A stretch of DNA of 64,000 nucleotides from Mucilaginibacter rivuli. GTDB taxonomy: Bacteria; Bacteroidota; Bacteroidia; Sphingobacteriales; Sphingobacteriaceae. The notes below the pieces were generated by a model. The model ran no database searches and had not been told where the DNA came from. It saw nothing but the letters and a program-made list of their open reading frames with translations. Numbering within the stretch: the stretch's first letter is position 1; each line of letters begins with the position of its first letter. Where the stretch lies: positions 620,001-684,000 of the forward strand of contig NZ_JAHXPQ010000001.1 in assembly GCF_019391655.1 (NCBI RefSeq), in the 5' to 3' direction. Below, in pieces: positions 12,624-56,491 of this stretch. Both the position numbers and the translations under genes were made by a program.

Positions 12624-13025
12624 TTGGTTGATGTTGCCGATATAACTGCCAATATTGCCCGTGTTGCCTTGGGCAGGCAAGTATGTGTGTATATACCCGA
12701 CCTTTCGGCCGAAAGTGGTTATGCCGCTGATATGACGGCTGTTTTAAAAGTAGTTCGGCAAGATGGTGTAGTATCCGGAACGGCTATGGTGGAAGAATCT
12801 GTTAGCCTGCGCGAGTTTGTGCGGCAATGTTTTTACGAACTTGGTATTACCATTGAGTTTAGCGGCAAAGGCCTGTACGAAAAAGGTGTTATTATTGATA
12901 CCGACGAAGATACCATAAACGCCATGTGCCTGGATACTGATATCTTTAGGTTTGGCGAAACAGTGGTAAGGGTAAAGGTATAGGCGGATAGCCCTTTATA
13001 CCGATCAACCAATGAACTAATCACC
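12624..13025 (+). pseudogene. Remnant of GDP-mannose 4,6-dehydratase (C-terminal third)
   Basis: The frame (first codon TTG at 12624, amber stop at 12981-12983) encodes 119 residues that align by eye with the C-terminal third of Gmd: ANIARVALGRQVCVYIPDL against its ANIALGRQ-type motif, then VSLREFVRQCFYELGITIEF and GKGLYEKGV against the SVREFVE..KELGI and GxGVNEKG blocks. Past the amber codon the same frame continues with ADSPLYRSTNELITQ up to TAA (13023-13025), matching the DPRYFRPAEVE element. The Rossmann half and catalytic residues are missing, so it cannot be a working dehydratase. The long open frame leaves open that the fragment is still translated. Confidence 0.6.
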
Positions 13026-13040
13026 CAATAAACCAATTCA

Positions 13041-24486: not shown

Positions 24487-26277
24487 TTAAAAACAATATT
24501 TGTTTGCCTCTATCAATTGTTTGGCAACACGCTGCCTTGCATCTTTAATATTGTATGGCTGTGTTTTGGTAAAACGTTTTAAACCCATCATCATGGCGGT
24601 AAACTCATCACCTTCGGCAAACGAGTTTAGGGCTTCTTTACCTTGTATATATACAATATCTGTGGCTTGGTGCAGATATATGCGCATCATATCCAATTGG
24701 CCGGCACAAGCTTCTTCGCCGCGCTGTTTTACCAGCTTTTCGGTGCGTAGGATGGTCGATTCTGCAATATAAACTTCTCCAACCATATTTGCAATATTCA
24801 TCAGTATCTCCTGCTCTTTGCCCAAAGTGGCCATCAGTTTTTGTACAGCGGCACCTGCTATCATTAAGCCAGCTTTTTTCAGGTTCTTTAATATCTTTTT
24901 CTCGTAAGCAAACAAGCTGTCATCTTCGGCAGCAAAATCAGGTATCGCCATTAACTCGCCGGCAACGGCCATGGCAGGCGTCATCAGATCAAGCTCACCT
25001 TTCAAAGCGCGTTTCAATAACATATCAACGATCAGCATTCGGTTAATCTCGTTGGTGCCTTCAAATATCCTGTTGATGCGGCTATCGCGGTAAGCGCGTT
25101 CCATTGGCGCTTCGGCGCTGTAGCCCATACCACCATAAACCTGCAGGCCTTCGTCAACGGTATAGTCCAGCATTTCAGATCCCCACACTTTTAGTATAGC
25201 GCATTCAATAGCAAACTGCTCTACCGATTTCAGTTTTGCTTTTGCCGGATCCATGCCGCCGGCCACTAAATGATCATAAGTATCATCAATATTTTGCCCT
25301 GCCCTGTATGCCGCGCTTTGGCAGGCATAATTGCGGGTAGCCATTTCGGCTAATTTATAACGTATAGCACCAAATTTTGAAATGGGTAGTTTAAACTGCA
25401 CACGTTCGTTAGAATAGTTAATGGCATAGTTTAAAGCCATACGCGCCGAGCCTATGGCTGCAGCACCTAATTTGATACGGCCAATATTTAGAATATTTAC
25501 TGCTATTTTAAAACCGTTTTGCCTTTCTGATAACAGGTTCTCTACCGGTACAGGGCAGTCGTTAAAAAATATCTGGCGGGTTGATGAGCCTTTGATACCC
25601 AGTTTATGCTCTTCGGGGTTCATGGTAATACCTCCAAAATCCTTTTCAACAATAAAAGCGCTCAGATTCTCATCGTTATCAATTTTGGCGAACACCACAA
25701 ATACATCGGCAAAACCACCGTTGGTGATCCACATTTTTTGGCCGGTGATGAGGTAATGCTTTCCATCACCACTCAAAACGGCTTTAGTACGACCAGAGTT
25801 TGCATCAGAACCAGAATTAGGTTCGGTTAAGCAGTACGCCGCTTTCCACTCTCCCGAACCTAATTTGGGTATATATTTTTGTTTTTGCTCTTCATTACCA
25901 TAATACAGTATCGGCAAAGTACCAATACCTGTGTGCGCCGATAAAGCCACTGCGAACGAAAACCCAGCGCCAACAGCATCAGCCACCAGCATGGATGTAT
26001 TGAAGTTTTTGCCAAAACCACCGTACTCTTCGGGGATGGATACGCTTAGCAGGCCCAACTCGCCGGCCTTATCCATCAAAGTCGGCATCAAACCTTCTTC
26101 CTGTGCGTCAATACGCTCCAGGTTTGGTAATACTTCGGCAGCCAAAAAATCCTCGCAGCTTTGTTTTATCATCTGCGATTCCTCGTCAAATTCTTCGGGG
26201 ATGAAGATATCGTCCGCTTCTGTTTCGCGGATAATGAACTCGCCGCCTTTAATGGTTTTCTTTTCTGTAGTTTCCAT
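24487..26277 (-). CDS. Acyl-CoA dehydrogenase, long form
   Basis: A 596-residue flavoprotein that introduces the trans-2 double bond into acyl-CoA, the first step of beta-oxidation. Start ATG 26277 (METTEKKTIKGG) is preferred over an upstream in-frame codon that lies inside the flanking inverted repeat. The FAD/substrate motifs YCLTEPNSGSDANS and WITNGGFADV and the C-terminal catalytic glutamate in RIFEGTNEINR are present, with YGGMGYSAEAPMERAYRDSR ahead. The extra 200-residue C-terminal part resembles the VLCAD/ACAD9-like class found with fadAB in Bacteroidota. It is the last gene of the operon. Confidence 0.92.
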   Translation of the reverse strand: METTEKKTIKGGEFIIRETEADDIFIPEEFDEESQMIKQSCEDFLAAEVLPNLERIDAQEEGLMPTLMDKAGELGLLSVSIPEEYGGFGKNFNTSMLVADAVGAGFSFAVALSAHTGIGTLPILYYGNEEQKQKYIPKLGSGEWKAAYCLTEPNSGSDANSGRTKAVLSGDGKHYLITGQKMWITNGGFADVFVVFAKIDNDENLSAFIVEKDFGGITMNPEEHKLGIKGSSTRQIFFNDCPVPVENLLSERQNGFKIAVNILNIGRIKLGAAAIGSARMALNYAINYSNERVQFKLPISKFGAIRYKLAEMATRNYACQSAAYRAGQNIDDTYDHLVAGGMDPAKAKLKSVEQFAIECAILKVWGSEMLDYTVDEGLQVYGGMGYSAEAPMERAYRDSRINRIFEGTNEINRMLIVDMLLKRALKGELDLMTPAMAVAGELMAIPDFAAEDDSLFAYEKKILKNLKKAGLMIAGAAVQKLMATLGKEQEILMNIANMVGEVYIAESTILRTEKLVKQRGEEACAGQLDMMRIYLHQATDIVYIQGKEALNSFAEGDEFTAMMMGLKRFTKTQPYNIKDARQRVAKQLIEANKYCF

Positions 26278-26282
26278 CGTGT

Positions 26283-26316
26283 TTTGATAAAAGAACAAGG
26301 AGTAAGGATTAAAGAC
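26283..26316. repeat. Left arm of inverted repeat flanking the S23 gene
   Basis: A 34-base arm made of four 7-nt units of the pattern GAnnAAR (GATAAAA, GAACAAG, GAGTAAG, GATTAAA) after TTT, ending in GAC. It matches the reverse complement of 26680-26713 at 29 of 34 positions. It fills the gap between the S23 stop and the dehydrogenase start. Confidence 0.8.
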
Positions 26317-26673
26317 CTATGCCTTATTCAAAGTTTTTCTAAAATTTGTTATCATCTTTTGCAGGATAATTATCTCTGCAATTAGTACTTCAGTATCCTC
26401 TTTAACTATAAATTCAAAATCATTAGCCAGTATAATTTGAGTCTCCAATTCAAACAATGAACCAATTGAAATCGATAAAAAATGCATAAACTCTTTATCC
26501 GAACTACGGGAAGAACCTTCAGCAATATTTGAAGCGACAGATACAACCGACCTGTTAATTTGAGAAGTTAAACCATACCTTTCGTTAGCTGGAAAGGTAG
26601 CTGTCAATCTATAAACAGACTTTGCCAGCTTCATTGCATCCTTCCAAATGTTTAACTGTCTAAAATTGTGCAT
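26317..26673 (-). CDS. Four-helix bundle protein, S23/23S rRNA intervening-sequence protein family
   Basis: A 118-residue, all-helical protein of the S23/IVP type (family signatures: LNIWKDAMKLAKSVYRLT near the N-terminus, then FPANERYGLTSQINRSVVSV and ASNIAEGSSRSSDKEFMHFL). Relatives are encoded inside intervening sequences of 23S rRNA genes and at scattered chromosomal sites; crystal structures show pentameric four-helix bundles with a basic face, but the role is unknown. Here it sits between fadA and the acyl-CoA dehydrogenase, with which it has no evident functional link, and is enclosed by a 34-bp inverted repeat. GGAG lies very close to the ATG (one base), so the true start context is unusual. 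Confidence 0.9.
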   Translation of the reverse strand: MHNFRQLNIWKDAMKLAKSVYRLTATFPANERYGLTSQINRSVVSVASNIAEGSSRSSDKEFMHFLSISIGSLFELETQIILANDFEFIVKEDTEVLIAEIIILQKMITNFRKTLNKA

Positions 26674-26679
26674 TCTCCT

Positions 26680-26713
26680 GTCTTTGTTCCTTGCTCCTTA
26701 TTCCTTTATCAAA
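26680..26713. repeat. Right arm of inverted repeat flanking the S23 gene
   Basis: Read on the minus strand this arm is TTT followed by GATAAAG, GAATAAG, GAGCAAG, GAACAAA and GAC: four 7-nt units of pattern GAnnAAR. It includes the fadA stop codon (TGA at 26709-26711) and supplies purine-rich, Shine-Dalgarno-like sequence before the S23 start. It pairs with 26283-26316. Confidence 0.8.
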
Positions 26714-27890
26714 GAAGTTCGAAGATTCCCGCAGCTCCCTGACCTGTTCCCACGCACATCGTTACCAAGCCGTATTTTTGCTTTCGCTCGCGCAATTCGT
26801 TCAAAAGTTGTACAGTCAGTTTAGCACCGGTACAACCCAAGGGGTGACCGAGCGCTATCGCGCCGCCGTTTACATTTAGTTTACTTTGATCGATTCCCAA
26901 TTCCCGCACTATCGCTAATGATTGCGATGCGAAGGCTTCGTTCAGTTCGATCATATCTATCTGATCTAGTTTCATACCTGCCTGCGCCAAAGCTTTCGGG
27001 ATGGCATATATCGGGCCTATGCCCATAATGCGTGGCGGTACGCCTGCAACGCCGTAGCTAACTAAACGGGCAATGGGTTGCACGTTCAGTTCCTTCAGCA
27101 TCTTTTCTGATACGATGAGCACAAAAGCTGCCCCGTCCGAAGTTTGCGATGAATTGCCTGCTGTTACCACACCATCAGCCATAAAAACAGGCTTCAATTT
27201 GGCCAGTTTATCAACGCTGGTATCAGCACGCGGGCCTTCGTCGGTATCAACAATGTACTCGCGGGTTTTCTTTTTCATGTTCTCATCCAGGTAGGTTTCC
27301 TTCACGGTGATGGGAACCACGCCATGTTTCAGGCTGCCGTTGGCTAAAGCCTTTATCGCTTTTTGATGCGATTGATAAGCAAACTCATCCTGGTCTTCGC
27401 GGCTAACCTTATATTCCTTTGCTACTTCTTCGGCAGTGAGGCCCATATTCCAGTACCAGTCGGGATGCGTTACGGCAACCGCTGGGTTCGGTACGATCTT
27501 CCATCCGCCCATTGGTATCATCGACATGCTTTCCACGCCACCTGCAATAATACAATCGGCCATACCGCTGCGTATCTTTGCCGTGGCGGTAGCAATGGTT
27601 TCCAACCCCGATGCGCAATAACGGTTCATGATAACTCCCGGCACTTTATCAGTATCCAAACCCATCAGTGATATTAACCTTGCCACGTTCAAACCCTGCT
27701 CCGCCTCGGGCGATGCATTGCCTACGATCACATCGTCTATGCGTTCTTTATCAAGTCCTGGAACTGATGCGACTAAATGTCTTATTACGTCTGCTGCAAG
27801 ATCATCCGGACGAGTAAAACGGAACACGCCTCTCGGTGCTTTACCAACTGCTGTACGATATCCTGCTATTATATATGCGTCTTGTCCCAT
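26709..27890 (-). CDS. fadA: Acetyl-CoA C-acyltransferase (3-ketoacyl-CoA thiolase)
   Basis: A 393-residue thiolase that splits 3-ketoacyl-CoA with CoA, the last beta-oxidation step. The acyl-carrying Cys92 lies in NRYCASGLE; the general-base motifs are GGAIALGHPLGCTG (His, about 350) and CVGTGQGAAGIF (Cys, about 380). Its start lies 3 bases after the fadB-like stop, so the two subunits of the trifunctional-type complex are translationally close. Its stop codon is the first part of the right arm of the inverted repeat around the S23 gene. Confidence 0.94.
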   Translation of the reverse strand: MGQDAYIIAGYRTAVGKAPRGVFRFTRPDDLAADVIRHLVASVPGLDKERIDDVIVGNASPEAEQGLNVARLISLMGLDTDKVPGVIMNRYCASGLETIATATAKIRSGMADCIIAGGVESMSMIPMGGWKIVPNPAVAVTHPDWYWNMGLTAEEVAKEYKVSREDQDEFAYQSHQKAIKALANGSLKHGVVPITVKETYLDENMKKKTREYIVDTDEGPRADTSVDKLAKLKPVFMADGVVTAGNSSQTSDGAAFVLIVSEKMLKELNVQPIARLVSYGVAGVPPRIMGIGPIYAIPKALAQAGMKLDQIDMIELNEAFASQSLAIVRELGIDQSKLNVNGGAIALGHPLGCTGAKLTVQLLNELRERKQKYGLVTMCVGTGQGAAGIFELL

Positions 27891-27893
27891 TTC

Positions 27894-30299
27894 TTAGTTT
27901 CTTAAAGGCTTACCTTTTGTTATTATCGACTGGATTCTTTCAAGCGTTTTTCTTTCTCCGCACAGCGAAAGGAACATCTCACGCTCCAAATCGAGTAGGT
28001 ATTGCTCGCTTACCAATGTTGGTGCTGACAAATCACCACCACACATCACATACCCCAACTTTTCGGATATCTTTTTATCGTGTTCCGAAATATAATGGCC
28101 CGAATACATGGAGTTTGCACCGATATAAACCATACCTAAACCTGCTTTGCCTAATACCTTAATATCCTTACGGTGCGCGGGTTGGGTATAGCCTGCATCT
28201 GCCAATTCCAATGCTTTCTCTTTGGCGTCGGCTATCAATCGGCTTTTATTCATACTGATGGAATATTTGTCTTTCAGCAAATAACCCAGGTCGAATGCTT
28301 CTTGTGCCGATGTGGACACTTTTGCCATGCCTATGGTAAGGAAGCGGTCTTTTAATACATTTTGCTCTATTTGTCCGTCTTTAAACTCATCGGATGCACG
28401 CAGGGCAAACTCTTTGCTGCCACCACCGCCGGGGATAAGACCTACACCAAACTCCACCAAACCCATATAGGTTTCGGCGGCTAATTGCACATGGTCGGCA
28501 TGGAGGCAAAACTCGCAGCCACCACCTAAAGCCAGGTCGTGTGGGGCAACCACTACGGGGATGGACGAATAACGTATCCGCATGGATGTGTTCTGGAACA
28601 TTTTGATGGCCATGTTAATCTCGTCCCATTCCTGCTCAACGGCCATCATAAATATCATACCCACATTGGCACCTGCCGAAAAATTCGCTCCATCGTTACC
28701 GATAACCAAACCGCGATAATCTTTCTCGGCAATATCAATAGCTTTATTAATGCCTTGCAAAACCTCGCCGCCAATGGTATTCATTTTGGTGTGGAACTCG
28801 AGGTTCAAAATACCATCACCTAAATCGGTTAAGGTTGTACCGCTATTTTTCCAGATGGTTTTGTTTGCACGGATATTATCCAGCACAATAAAATTATCCG
28901 TTCCCGGGATAGGCTTGTATGTTTTGGTCGGGATATCGTAGTATTGCTTTACACCGTTATCAACTTTGTAAAAAGATTCGTTTCCACCGTCCAACATCTC
29001 GTGCACCCATGCAGCGGCTTCGTTGCCTTTTTCTTTCATGGGTGCAACGGTGGCTTTTACACCCAGCGCGTCCCAAACTTCAAACGGACCCAACTCCCAG
29101 CCAAAGCCGGCACGCAAGGCATCATCTATACGATATAACTCATCCGATATTTCGGGTATCCTGTCGCTTACATATTCAAACAAACCGTAAAACGAGGTGC
29201 GGAAAAACTCACCTGCTTTATCAGTGCCTTTAGCATAAACGCGCATGCGTTCGCGCAGGTTATCAACCGGTTTAGTAGCTTCCAGCGTTGCCGATTTTAC
29301 TTTTATCTGCGGCTTGTATTCCAGCGTCTTTAGGTCCAGCGCTAAAATTTCGCTGCTGCCGTCGGCATTTTTTACTTTCTTATAAAAACCTTGTTTTGTT
29401 TTGTCGCCCAGCCATTTGTTCTCGGCCATTTTCTTTACGTATTCAGGCAGCACAAACAGGTCGTGCGCCTTATCGTTAGGCAGGTTATTGTAAAGGCCGT
29501 TGGCCACGTTTATCATGGTATCTAAGCCCACAACATCGCTGGTGCGGAAGGTGGCCGATTTTGGCCTGCCTAATACCGGGCCGGTAAATTTGTCCACCTC
29601 CTCAACCGTCAGGTCCATTTTTTCCACCAAATGCAATAACGACATGATGGAATAAACTCCAACACGGTTAGCAATAAACGCCGGGGTATCTTTACATAAA
29701 ACAGTTGTTTTACCTAAAAACTTATCGCCGTAGTGCATTACAAAATCAATCACCTCGGGGCTTGTTGCCGGGGTGGGAATGATCTCCAATAAACGTAAAT
29801 ATCGCGGCGGGTTAAAAAAGTGCGTTCCGCAGAAATGGGCTTTGAAATCTTCGCTGCGCCCTTCGGCCATTAAATGGATGGGGATGCCTGATGTATTTGA
29901 TGTGATGAGTGTACCCGGTTTGCGAAATTTTTCCACCTCGTCGTACACCTTCTTTTTGATATCTAAATTCTCAACCACCACCTCTATCGTCCAGTCGCAA
30001 CCGGCGATGTCCTTCATGTTATCGGTAAAGTTACCTGTAGTAATGCGGTTAACCACCGCTTTGGTAAATATGGGCGATGGGTTTGATTTGACAGCGGTTT
30101 CGAGCGCGGCGTTTACAATTCGGTTCGTCACTTTAGGGTTATCTAAAGTGAAGCCTTTGGCTTGCTCATCGGGCGTTAATTCTTTTGGAGCGATATCCAT
30201 CAGCAATACCTCAACGCCAATATTGGCGAAGTGGCAGGCAATGCGCGAACCCATAACCCCTGAGCCTAAAACCGCTACTTTTTTTATTATTCTGTTCAT
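27894..30299 (-). CDS. 3-hydroxyacyl-CoA dehydrogenase / enoyl-CoA hydratase fusion
   Basis: An 801-residue bifunctional enzyme for the two middle steps of beta-oxidation. The dehydrogenase comes first: NAD fold KVAVLGSGVMGSRIACHF (residues about 7-24) and the 3HCDH C-terminal domain about 195-300 (DTPAFIANRVGVYSIM). A hydratase/crotonase domain follows at about 480-680 (GNDGANFSAGANVGM oxyanion hole, GLVEFGVGLIPGGGGS). This order is opposite to E. coli FadB and is the form common in Bacteroidota, Firmicutes and Actinobacteria. It is followed at 3 bases by fadA and preceded by marR. Confidence 0.93.
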   Translation of the reverse strand: MNRIIKKVAVLGSGVMGSRIACHFANIGVEVLLMDIAPKELTPDEQAKGFTLDNPKVTNRIVNAALETAVKSNPSPIFTKAVVNRITTGNFTDNMKDIAGCDWTIEVVVENLDIKKKVYDEVEKFRKPGTLITSNTSGIPIHLMAEGRSEDFKAHFCGTHFFNPPRYLRLLEIIPTPATSPEVIDFVMHYGDKFLGKTTVLCKDTPAFIANRVGVYSIMSLLHLVEKMDLTVEEVDKFTGPVLGRPKSATFRTSDVVGLDTMINVANGLYNNLPNDKAHDLFVLPEYVKKMAENKWLGDKTKQGFYKKVKNADGSSEILALDLKTLEYKPQIKVKSATLEATKPVDNLRERMRVYAKGTDKAGEFFRTSFYGLFEYVSDRIPEISDELYRIDDALRAGFGWELGPFEVWDALGVKATVAPMKEKGNEAAAWVHEMLDGGNESFYKVDNGVKQYYDIPTKTYKPIPGTDNFIVLDNIRANKTIWKNSGTTLTDLGDGILNLEFHTKMNTIGGEVLQGINKAIDIAEKDYRGLVIGNDGANFSAGANVGMIFMMAVEQEWDEINMAIKMFQNTSMRIRYSSIPVVVAPHDLALGGGCEFCLHADHVQLAAETYMGLVEFGVGLIPGGGGSKEFALRASDEFKDGQIEQNVLKDRFLTIGMAKVSTSAQEAFDLGYLLKDKYSISMNKSRLIADAKEKALELADAGYTQPAHRKDIKVLGKAGLGMVYIGANSMYSGHYISEHDKKISEKLGYVMCGGDLSAPTLVSEQYLLDLEREMFLSLCGERKTLERIQSIITKGKPLRN

Positions 30300-56393: not shown

Positions 56394-56456
56394 TTATAAA
56401 CTTTATATTTCACACAAATAACGTCATATTTGTGCTTTGTTTAGATAAATTTTAAA

Positions 56457-56491
56457 GCCGAATGCTGAAAGCCAAAAGCTGAAAGCCAAAT
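56457..56491. repeat. Tandem 7-nt repeat (five units)
   Basis: Five successive heptamers: GCCGAAT, GCTGAAA, GCCAAAA, GCTGAAA, GCCAAAT, consensus GCYRAAW. They lie in the rsmA-pdxA divergent gap. The same 7-nt periodicity is seen in the arms of the inverted repeat at the S23 gene, though with another motif. Confidence 0.75.

Follow-up and report, generated by a model that had tools for sequence, protein, structure and literature searches.

An S23 gene between inverted heptamer arrays in a fad operon of Mucilaginibacter rivuli may be one element of a two-tier repeat system

The window analysed here is a 64,000-nt stretch of the Mucilaginibacter rivuli genome (contig NZ_JAHXPQ010000001.1, positions 620,001 to 684,000), and it contains a fad operon in which a small gene of the S23 (23S_rRNA_IVP) family sits between two inverted arrays of heptamers. 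The S23 gene (26317..26673, minus strand) is intact and codes for a four-helix-bundle protein of 118 amino acids that matches PF05635 at 129.4 bits (cut-off 33.8), TIGR02436 at 125.9 bits and the solved S23 protein 2gsc with a phmmer E value of 6e-24. Its operon neighbours, a fadA-like gene upstream (26709..27890, with orthologues compared below) and an acyl-CoA dehydrogenase-like gene (acd) downstream (24487..26277, with its ATG at 26277), are likewise on the minus strand and keep the names given to them in the initial annotation. Upstream of fadA lies a further operon gene (27894..30299, minus strand) which we take to be 3-hydroxyacyl-CoA dehydrogenase-like. The S23 element is thereby located between two protein-coding genes and outside any rRNA gene, and its coding strand has no large ORF besides S23.

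The initial annotation had described a heptad-built inverted repeat around this ORF, and both parts of that description are borne out. The two arms (26283..26316 and 26680..26713, both read on the minus strand) are 34 nt each, are complementary at 29 of 34 positions and have 363 nt between them, and their flank-to-flank alignment score of 23.0 compares with a maximum of 14.0 in 1000 Markov-shuffled flank pairs. On the coding strand the 5' arm, which is upstream of S23 at 26680..26713, consists of GATAAAG, GAATAAG, GAGCAAG, GAACAAA and a final GAC. The 3' arm, which is downstream at 26283..26316 and is an inverted copy of the array, reads GATAAAA, GAACAAG, GAGTAAG, GATTAAA and GAC when reverse-complemented from that strand. 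Each arm is made up of four GAnnAAR heptamers plus GAC and so presents five GA cores at a 7-nt pitch. The lag-7 scores of the two arms are 11 and 9 (reached by 2 and 12 of 2000 shuffles, respectively), and every other lag from 3 to 12 scores 6 or less. As had also been noted, the fadA stop codon (26709-26711) lies within one arm and the other arm ends 5 nt from the acd ATG. The naming of the arms needs one correction: because the genes are on the minus strand, the arm previously called the right one corresponds to the transcript's 5' arm.

The solved S23 relatives 2gsc and 2rld each have five chains, and the S23 protein is described as a homopentamer in PMC4990558. Congener S23 genes were compared in seven groups of relatives, which have a mean pN of 0.10-0.18 and a mean pS of 0.65-0.83, with group medians for dN/dS of 0.00-0.08 as obtained from the 14 unsaturated pairs among 95. 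These values indicate that the S23 protein is under purifying selection in the congeners examined, unlike the S23 of the Coxiella 23S rRNA intervening sequence (IVS), which is reported to decay (PMC4990558). The most conserved positions of the S23 alignment include the polar residues Q38, R41, S45, N49, E52, S72 and E75 (numbering of the window protein), and these are spaced like one face of a helix and could form a candidate active or binding site. In the window's phylum, 193 of the 247 genomes sampled have a PF05635 match, and in the phylum of a Thiobacillus 62 of 398 do. One Pseudomonadota-type S23 protein had no match in an annotated phage collection.

The window genome (G000) contains four S23 genes, all of which are flanked by inverted arrays, with a period of 7 in three cases and 8 in one. 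The initial annotation had tied its proposal to the presence of such repeats around other S23 genes, and the other three of this genome do have them. It had also envisaged the same heptad arms around every S23 gene; the period is indeed shared, and the heptad sequence is not, since the units at the four genes (GTATCAA, AAGGAnT, GAGTCTT and TGATTGAA) all differ. Overall, 281 S23 loci were compared, drawn from Bacteroidota, Pseudomonadota and other phyla as well as from plasmids and viral contigs, and roughly two thirds of them are enclosed by clear inverted repeats. Specifically, in the window's phylum an inverted-repeat score of at least 15 is reached by 81 of 121 loci as compared with 10 of 242 swapped flank pairs and 0 of 120 distal flanks, with 20 of the 121 loci scoring below 12. 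Self-similarity at lag 7 (score of at least 10) is observed in 50% of the 242 flanks of these loci versus 0.4% of distal flanks, while lag 8 accounts for 9.5% and lags 5, 6, 9, 10 and 11 for at most 1.2% each; 10 of the 121 loci have no period-7 or -8 array scoring 9 or more. The same score of at least 15 is found in 46 of 76 loci from named genomes, 23 of 32 from viral contigs, 25 of 37 from a set that is mainly Pseudomonadota and 9 of 15 from plasmids (14 cyanobacterial and one Riemerella; L498-L512), and removal of duplicates from the first four sets, without plasmids, leaves 169 of 254 loci with a clear inverted repeat. Among flanks whose best array scores at least 10, the best period is 7 or 8 in 97 of 99 (named genomes), 46 of 46 (viral), 56 of 58 (Pseudomonadota set) and 24 of 24 (plasmids, amounting to 24 of their 30 flanks); flanks with no array at that score number 53 of 152, 18 of 64, 16 of 74 and 6 of 30, respectively. 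Weak S23 genes are under-sampled in these counts because the loci were taken from the top of score lists (the best matches and 60 more from the list top, with few skipped). Loci dropped for incomplete ORFs or flanks were 2 of 123 (L022, L029), 4 of 80 (L245, L253, L264, L303), 1 of 33 (L337) and 2 of 39 (L377, L381), and 13 of the 281 are repeats, 12 of them by protein (six viral, and including L291 of L005 and L313 of L019) and one, L357 of L317, from its arrays. As judged from these comparisons, S23 genes tend to sit between inverted arrays of 7- or 8-nt units.

An S23 ORF within a terminal inverted repeat is also the architecture of the S23-bearing 23S rRNA IVS of Coxiella, Leptospira and others, where the ORF occupies the loop, and the likeness drawn in the initial annotation is sound in this respect. 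Its further suggestion that this architecture had been moved from rRNA into a protein operon is not supported. An Rfam scan of 59 S23 loci (56 distinct; 13 from viral contigs and the rest mainly non-Bacteroidota, all outside the 121 Bacteroidota loci) gave no LSU rRNA match, and rRNA thus seems to be an exceptional location for S23; we rejected 23S rRNA as the usual home of the family on this basis. S23 genes of cyanobacterial plasmids adjoin heptamers such as AGGGAAC and TCAGAAG, and some of them lie inside CRISPR operons, in the order cas6-S23-cas4 (L499, L504) or cas10-S23-cmr3 (L511).

The type of unit goes with the protein. Among locus pairs without detected outer-flank homology, similar array k-mers are shared by 0.6-1.1% of those whose S23 proteins are less than 40% identical, as against 64% of the 61 pairs with an identity of at least 70%, and only 1 of 64 locus pairs from the same genome has them. 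These comparisons show array unit type to follow the S23 protein clade and to differ between loci of one genome, a match that can stem from linkage alone. By eye, sister S23 clades differ by a single core base (AAGC, AAGG or AAGT), and related clades may also differ in pitch (AGTCCGAA versus AGTCCAT). Across 97 arrays, mismatches are concentrated at particular unit positions (z 9.6) and about four of seven columns are invariant, and part of this clustering could come from re-duplication of an already mutated unit. The best-conserved dinucleotide most often runs through five units (67 of 150 period-7 arrays and 14 of 24 period-8 arrays), a count that is raised somewhat by choosing the best of 7 or 8 phases.

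We also compared the positions that S23 elements occupy. S23 is co-directional with both neighbouring ORFs at 106 of 120 loci, and where the arms are clear (81 loci) the median distance between the outer edge of an arm and the adjacent ORF is 1 nt on one side and 0 nt on the other. This tight fit exists in part because the arms frequently provide the stop codon of the neighbour, as they do in the window. A co-directional position that fills the gap between genes fits a passenger expressed by read-through. In regards to the idea in the initial annotation that the element is possibly a small mobile cassette, for which relatives should hold an empty site, such a junction is present in G007, the closest relative by FadA (91% identical), where fadA is directly followed by acd across a spacer of about 60 nt that lacks S23. 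The alternative outcome, S23 at this place in all relatives, is not what is observed: S23 occurs within 1.5 kb in 4 of 26 fadA loci, counting the window's own. It lies between fadA and acd in the window and at L148, and at L126 and L145 it is on the other side of fadA, between the 3-hydroxyacyl-CoA dehydrogenase-like gene and fadA. Further support for a dispensable cassette comes from eight other junctions in eight congeners, for which 51 of 64 genome-junction cells were recovered; S23 is present in 20 of these and absent in 31, and all eight junctions are polymorphic. For example, as read by eye, the S23 element at junction L081 has AAGG units in four species, whereas three others show array remains without S23, mostly of the AAGC type. 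Many of the S23-less junctions hold either an array of a different type or palindromic repeats that are unrelated, which makes a clean insertion point or duplication unreadable there, and neither a clean insertion point nor a target-site duplication was recognised by eye at the eight congener junctions. The palindromic repeats are GTCATTGCGAGG...CCTCGCAATGAC-like or CCCCTAAAGGGG-like (L198, L204, L224-L227, L229, L230; L206, L210, L216, L218, L222, L238, L239). Eleven other S23 loci across the phylum join the window locus (L002) by homologous outer flanks, forming a group of 12 with differing unit types and proteins; this flank homology suggests that S23 elements have settled in the fad operon repeatedly.

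Arrays of this kind are also present away from S23 genes. In the non-coding part of 864 kb of the window's contig there are 30 tandem arrays at lag 7 and 16 at lag 8, as compared with 10 at lag 4, 6 at lag 12 and 0-5 at each of lags 5, 6, 9, 10 and 11. Within the window itself, positions 13000-13037 and 56454-56486 hold non-coding tandem arrays of period 8 (ACCAATxA-like) and period 7 (AAAGCxG-like), away from S23 genes. A scan of the contig for inverted array pairs, which missed the window's own pair because one of its arrays is below threshold, listed 18 pairs, among them 14 gene-less hairpins (loops of 11-102 nt) and one S23 element, and many of the gene-less hairpins span the gap between two genes. 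The AAGGA type, to which the window belongs, gives 16 overlapping matches, 4 in the window's arms and 12 at six other places on the contig, versus 1 in the reversed contig. By eye, the loops of S23-less pairs look mutually unrelated, both on the window's contig and at those of 20 G030 loci in which both arms are visible. An inspection of hairpin loops for traces of a former S23 gene gave one doubtful case, at contig position 315482-315555.

The abundance of S23-less arrays goes with the S23 content of the genome. In a comparison of three genomes, the densities of lag-7 and lag-8 arrays per 100 kb of non-coding DNA are 4.4 and 1.5 in G035, which has no S23 match, 24.3 and 13.0 in G000 with its four S23 genes, and 34.5 and 11.5 in G021 with 15; the mean densities at lags 5, 6, 9, 10 and 11 are 2.1, 2.1 and 1.5, respectively, and congeners are not independent of each other. 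A broader comparison of 61 congeners shows that matches to the GTTCAT type range from 0 to 221 per genome, with reversed-pattern controls near zero; these matches overlap and consequently exceed the number of arrays. The median is 71 in the 15 genomes with a cognate S23 (defined as at least 77% identity to L055) and 7.5 in the 46 others (p 6e-6). The number of AGTA-type arrays also goes with the cognate S23 (p 0.002; 37 of the 61 genomes, from an incomplete cognate list), and cross-type controls give p 0.91 and 0.34. The reversed-pattern control for AGTA is not clean, with 118 matches in G015 and 145 in G020 that are perhaps other array types. There are exceptions in both directions, as 14 of the 46 congeners without a cognate S23 still have at least 15 GTTCAT-type matches (168 in G710), and G715, which does have the cognate S23, has a single match. 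Two of the 14, G708 and G712, have partial or 73% S23 matches, and the GTTCAT-rich genomes without a cognate could be ones with lost or divergent S23 genes.

Our preferred reading, to which we assign a probability of roughly 0.6, is that the window feature is one S23 element in a two-tier repeat system similar to REPIN/RAYT, the sole protein of which is a four-helix bundle that would act on the arrays. An S23 element would be an S23 gene between two inverted arrays, each with about five short cores at a pitch of 7 nt or sometimes 8 nt, that is expressed by read-through from the host operon. The S23 pentamer would recognise the core that is typical of its cognate arrays, in all likelihood on DNA, with five cores suiting five subunits in keeping with the five chains of the solved relatives, and it may act on cognate arrays both in cis and in trans. 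S23-bearing elements, of which there are few per genome, and S23-less arrays, of which there are tens or more, would be spread or maintained together, as is thought for RAYTs and REPINs. At the level of sequence comparison, the components of this reading that concern the general layout, the clade-matched arrays, the position in gaps, the gain and loss at junctions and the dispersed S23-less arrays that track S23 are demonstrated. A counterpoint is that the unrelated loops of the S23-less pairs would be odd for recent transposition of whole hairpins.

The likeness to REPIN/RAYT systems, in which few coding copies accompany many short, paired, intergenic inverted repeats whose type is tied to a specific protein (PMC3116915), lies in the many short paired inverted repeats and in a repeat type that goes with the coding partner, bar the exceptions in 14 of 46 genomes. 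There are also differences. The S23 element has no Y1 transposase, it has tandem 7- or 8-nt cores in place of a palindromic REP, and it encodes a single protein, a four-helix bundle that is not known to catalyse any reaction.

An alternative that we regard as unlikely is that the element acts as an mRNA intervening sequence, a selfish passenger at the RNA level. RNase III would excise its stem from the operon transcript, as it does in the case of the 23S rRNA IVS, so that the S23 message is set free and fadA and acd are parted. In agreement with this the transcribed strand folds with its arms paired (-118.8 kcal/mol, z -3.3, with 0 of 100 shuffles as low), the co-directional position at most loci fits a dependence on read-through, and in the Coxiella IVS, with its terminal stem of 28 bp and its tandem GACAGAT heptamers that vary in number between strains, RNase III cuts where the first repeat begins (PMC4990558). 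However, an RNase III stem needs neither a heptad period nor clade-specific cores, and arm mismatches at 199 loci comprise 200 of the G.U type, 248 of the A.C type and 563 transversions (195, 244 and 548 at the 193 loci left when duplicates are removed; p 0.02 in the direction of A.C). G.U pairs do not outnumber A.C mismatches, and selection for stem pairing in the sense RNA is thus unsupported. The order of units is also only weakly kept between arms, being barely above that of permuted units (41 of 64 above the permuted mean and 8 of 64 in the top 5%), and we rejected an RNA stem as the selected feature on these two counts. Together they speak for arms that a protein recognises individually, as DNA, rather than for a stem that masks ribosome-binding sites. 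The suggestion in the initial annotation that pairing conceals AAGGAG-like sites is disfavoured by the same results, and the common unit types GTATCAA, GTTCATA and AGATTTG are not Shine-Dalgarno-like. The strong fold of the transcript, with the opposite strand at z -4.0, is then a by-product of the inverted arrays that is compatible with RNase III cleavage. The window feature is of the S23/IVS kind and the general pattern is a variant of that kind, differing from the 23S rRNA IVS by its location between protein-coding genes, its clade-specific arrays, the dispersed S23-less arrays and the lack of any sign of selection for RNA pairing. In the preferred reading, the 23S rRNA IVS of Coxiella appears to be such an element at a different location, and 23S rRNA IVS look like a special case.

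Clade-specific cores, their number of about five per array and the location of arrays between operon genes would also be consistent with arrays that regulate, a view that we think somewhat less likely still. TRAP is a model for the logic of regulation by a ring-shaped binding protein, and by that logic a ring of S23 would repress its own message together with a regulon of array-bearing operons, with no movement involved. A regulon would be expected to be more stable than what is observed, namely presence or absence and turnover of array type at the same junction among congeners, counts for a single type that run from 0 to 221 matches per congener, and copies on viral contigs and plasmids. These features look like mobile DNA.

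It is improbable, in our estimate, that S23 is an accessory or passenger and that another enzyme, either a RAYT/Y1 transposase or a reverse transcriptase, moves S23-bearing and S23-less elements in trans. RAYTs are thought to spread REPINs (PMC3116915), S23 is homologous to Avd of the diversity-generating retroelements (PMC10053308), and the window genome has one RVT_1 and one Y1_Tnp match. However, the sole Y1_Tnp match (31.7 bits, partial) lies between its own inverted REP-like copies with no 7- or 8-nt array, on which grounds a RAYT/Y1 transposase was rejected as the mover. This gene, at L190 (G000 contig C14), has near-perfect inverted 36-nt REP-like palindromic copies at about 1295-1330 and 1947-1982, and it is likely a RAYT with its REPs that is separate from the heptad arrays. 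A reverse transcriptase was likewise rejected, as RVT_1 is found in 19 of 37 genomes and in none of G008, G011, G013, G020 and G022, each with 5 to 8 S23 genes. Avd is a distant homologue with the same fold and is an accessory protein of a genetic element (PMC10053308). The window S23 matches the NCBIfam Avd model weakly at 21.8 bits, below the cut-off of 80, and its neighbours, unlike those of a diversity-generating retroelement, are fatty-acid genes.

Finally, an origin of the heptamers by replication slippage and of their inversion by template switching, with S23 inserting into them or riding along, would fit the variable array length (up to about 25 units at L266) and arms that are perfect copies as expected of template switching (L001), but is highly improbable given that array density tracks S23 presence in the three genomes and the cognate type, that unit variation is confined to certain positions where slippage would homogenise all, and that unit number peaks near five.

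Heptamer repeats have long been reported from cyanobacteria, and these are presumably the repeats known as STRR. Like the S23 arrays, the cyanobacterial heptamers and those of Xanthomonas and Nostoc (GGGAATC, GGGGA(T/C)T) are 7-nt tandem intergenic units. In X. campestris, intergenic GGGAATC heptamers form convergent inverted pairs in 70 cases, which are unexplained (PMC4692102, where heptanucleotides of Calothrix are also cited). The species also encodes the S23 protein XCC0516, which is the solved 2gsc, and the GGGAATC pairs and this protein may belong together. The term S23 does not occur in the main text of PMC4692102 or of PMC4679880, and the heptamer repeats are not tied to S23 there. 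Three viral contigs with GGGAATC repeats have no S23. Apart from the Coxiella IVS, the literature searched gave no report that links S23 genes with heptamer arrays in inverted orientation, which is weak evidence of absence given that this literature covers few subscription papers and no preprints.

A wider form of the preferred two-tier reading is tentative, and we hold it at somewhat under even odds. It posits that S23 is the sole protein of a new class of self-spreading DNA repeats, in which a pentameric ring would read five cores spaced at 7 or 8 nt in paired arrays and drive the spread of arrays with or without an S23 gene. The Bacteroidota heptamer hairpins that fill gaps between genes, the heptanucleotides of heterocystous cyanobacteria, the Xanthomonas GGGAATC pairs and the 23S rRNA IVS would all be covered by such a class.

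The family PF05635 is named after a location in rRNA that none of the 59 scanned loci showed. If the arrays and S23 form one system, then S23 proteins, intergenic heptamer repeats and rRNA intervening sequences would become one puzzle. Each S23 clade would then have its own predicted binding sequence, for which the AAGC, AAGG and AAGT types would be natural specificity controls. If S23 acts on the arrays, this layout may represent a distinct class of repeat system.
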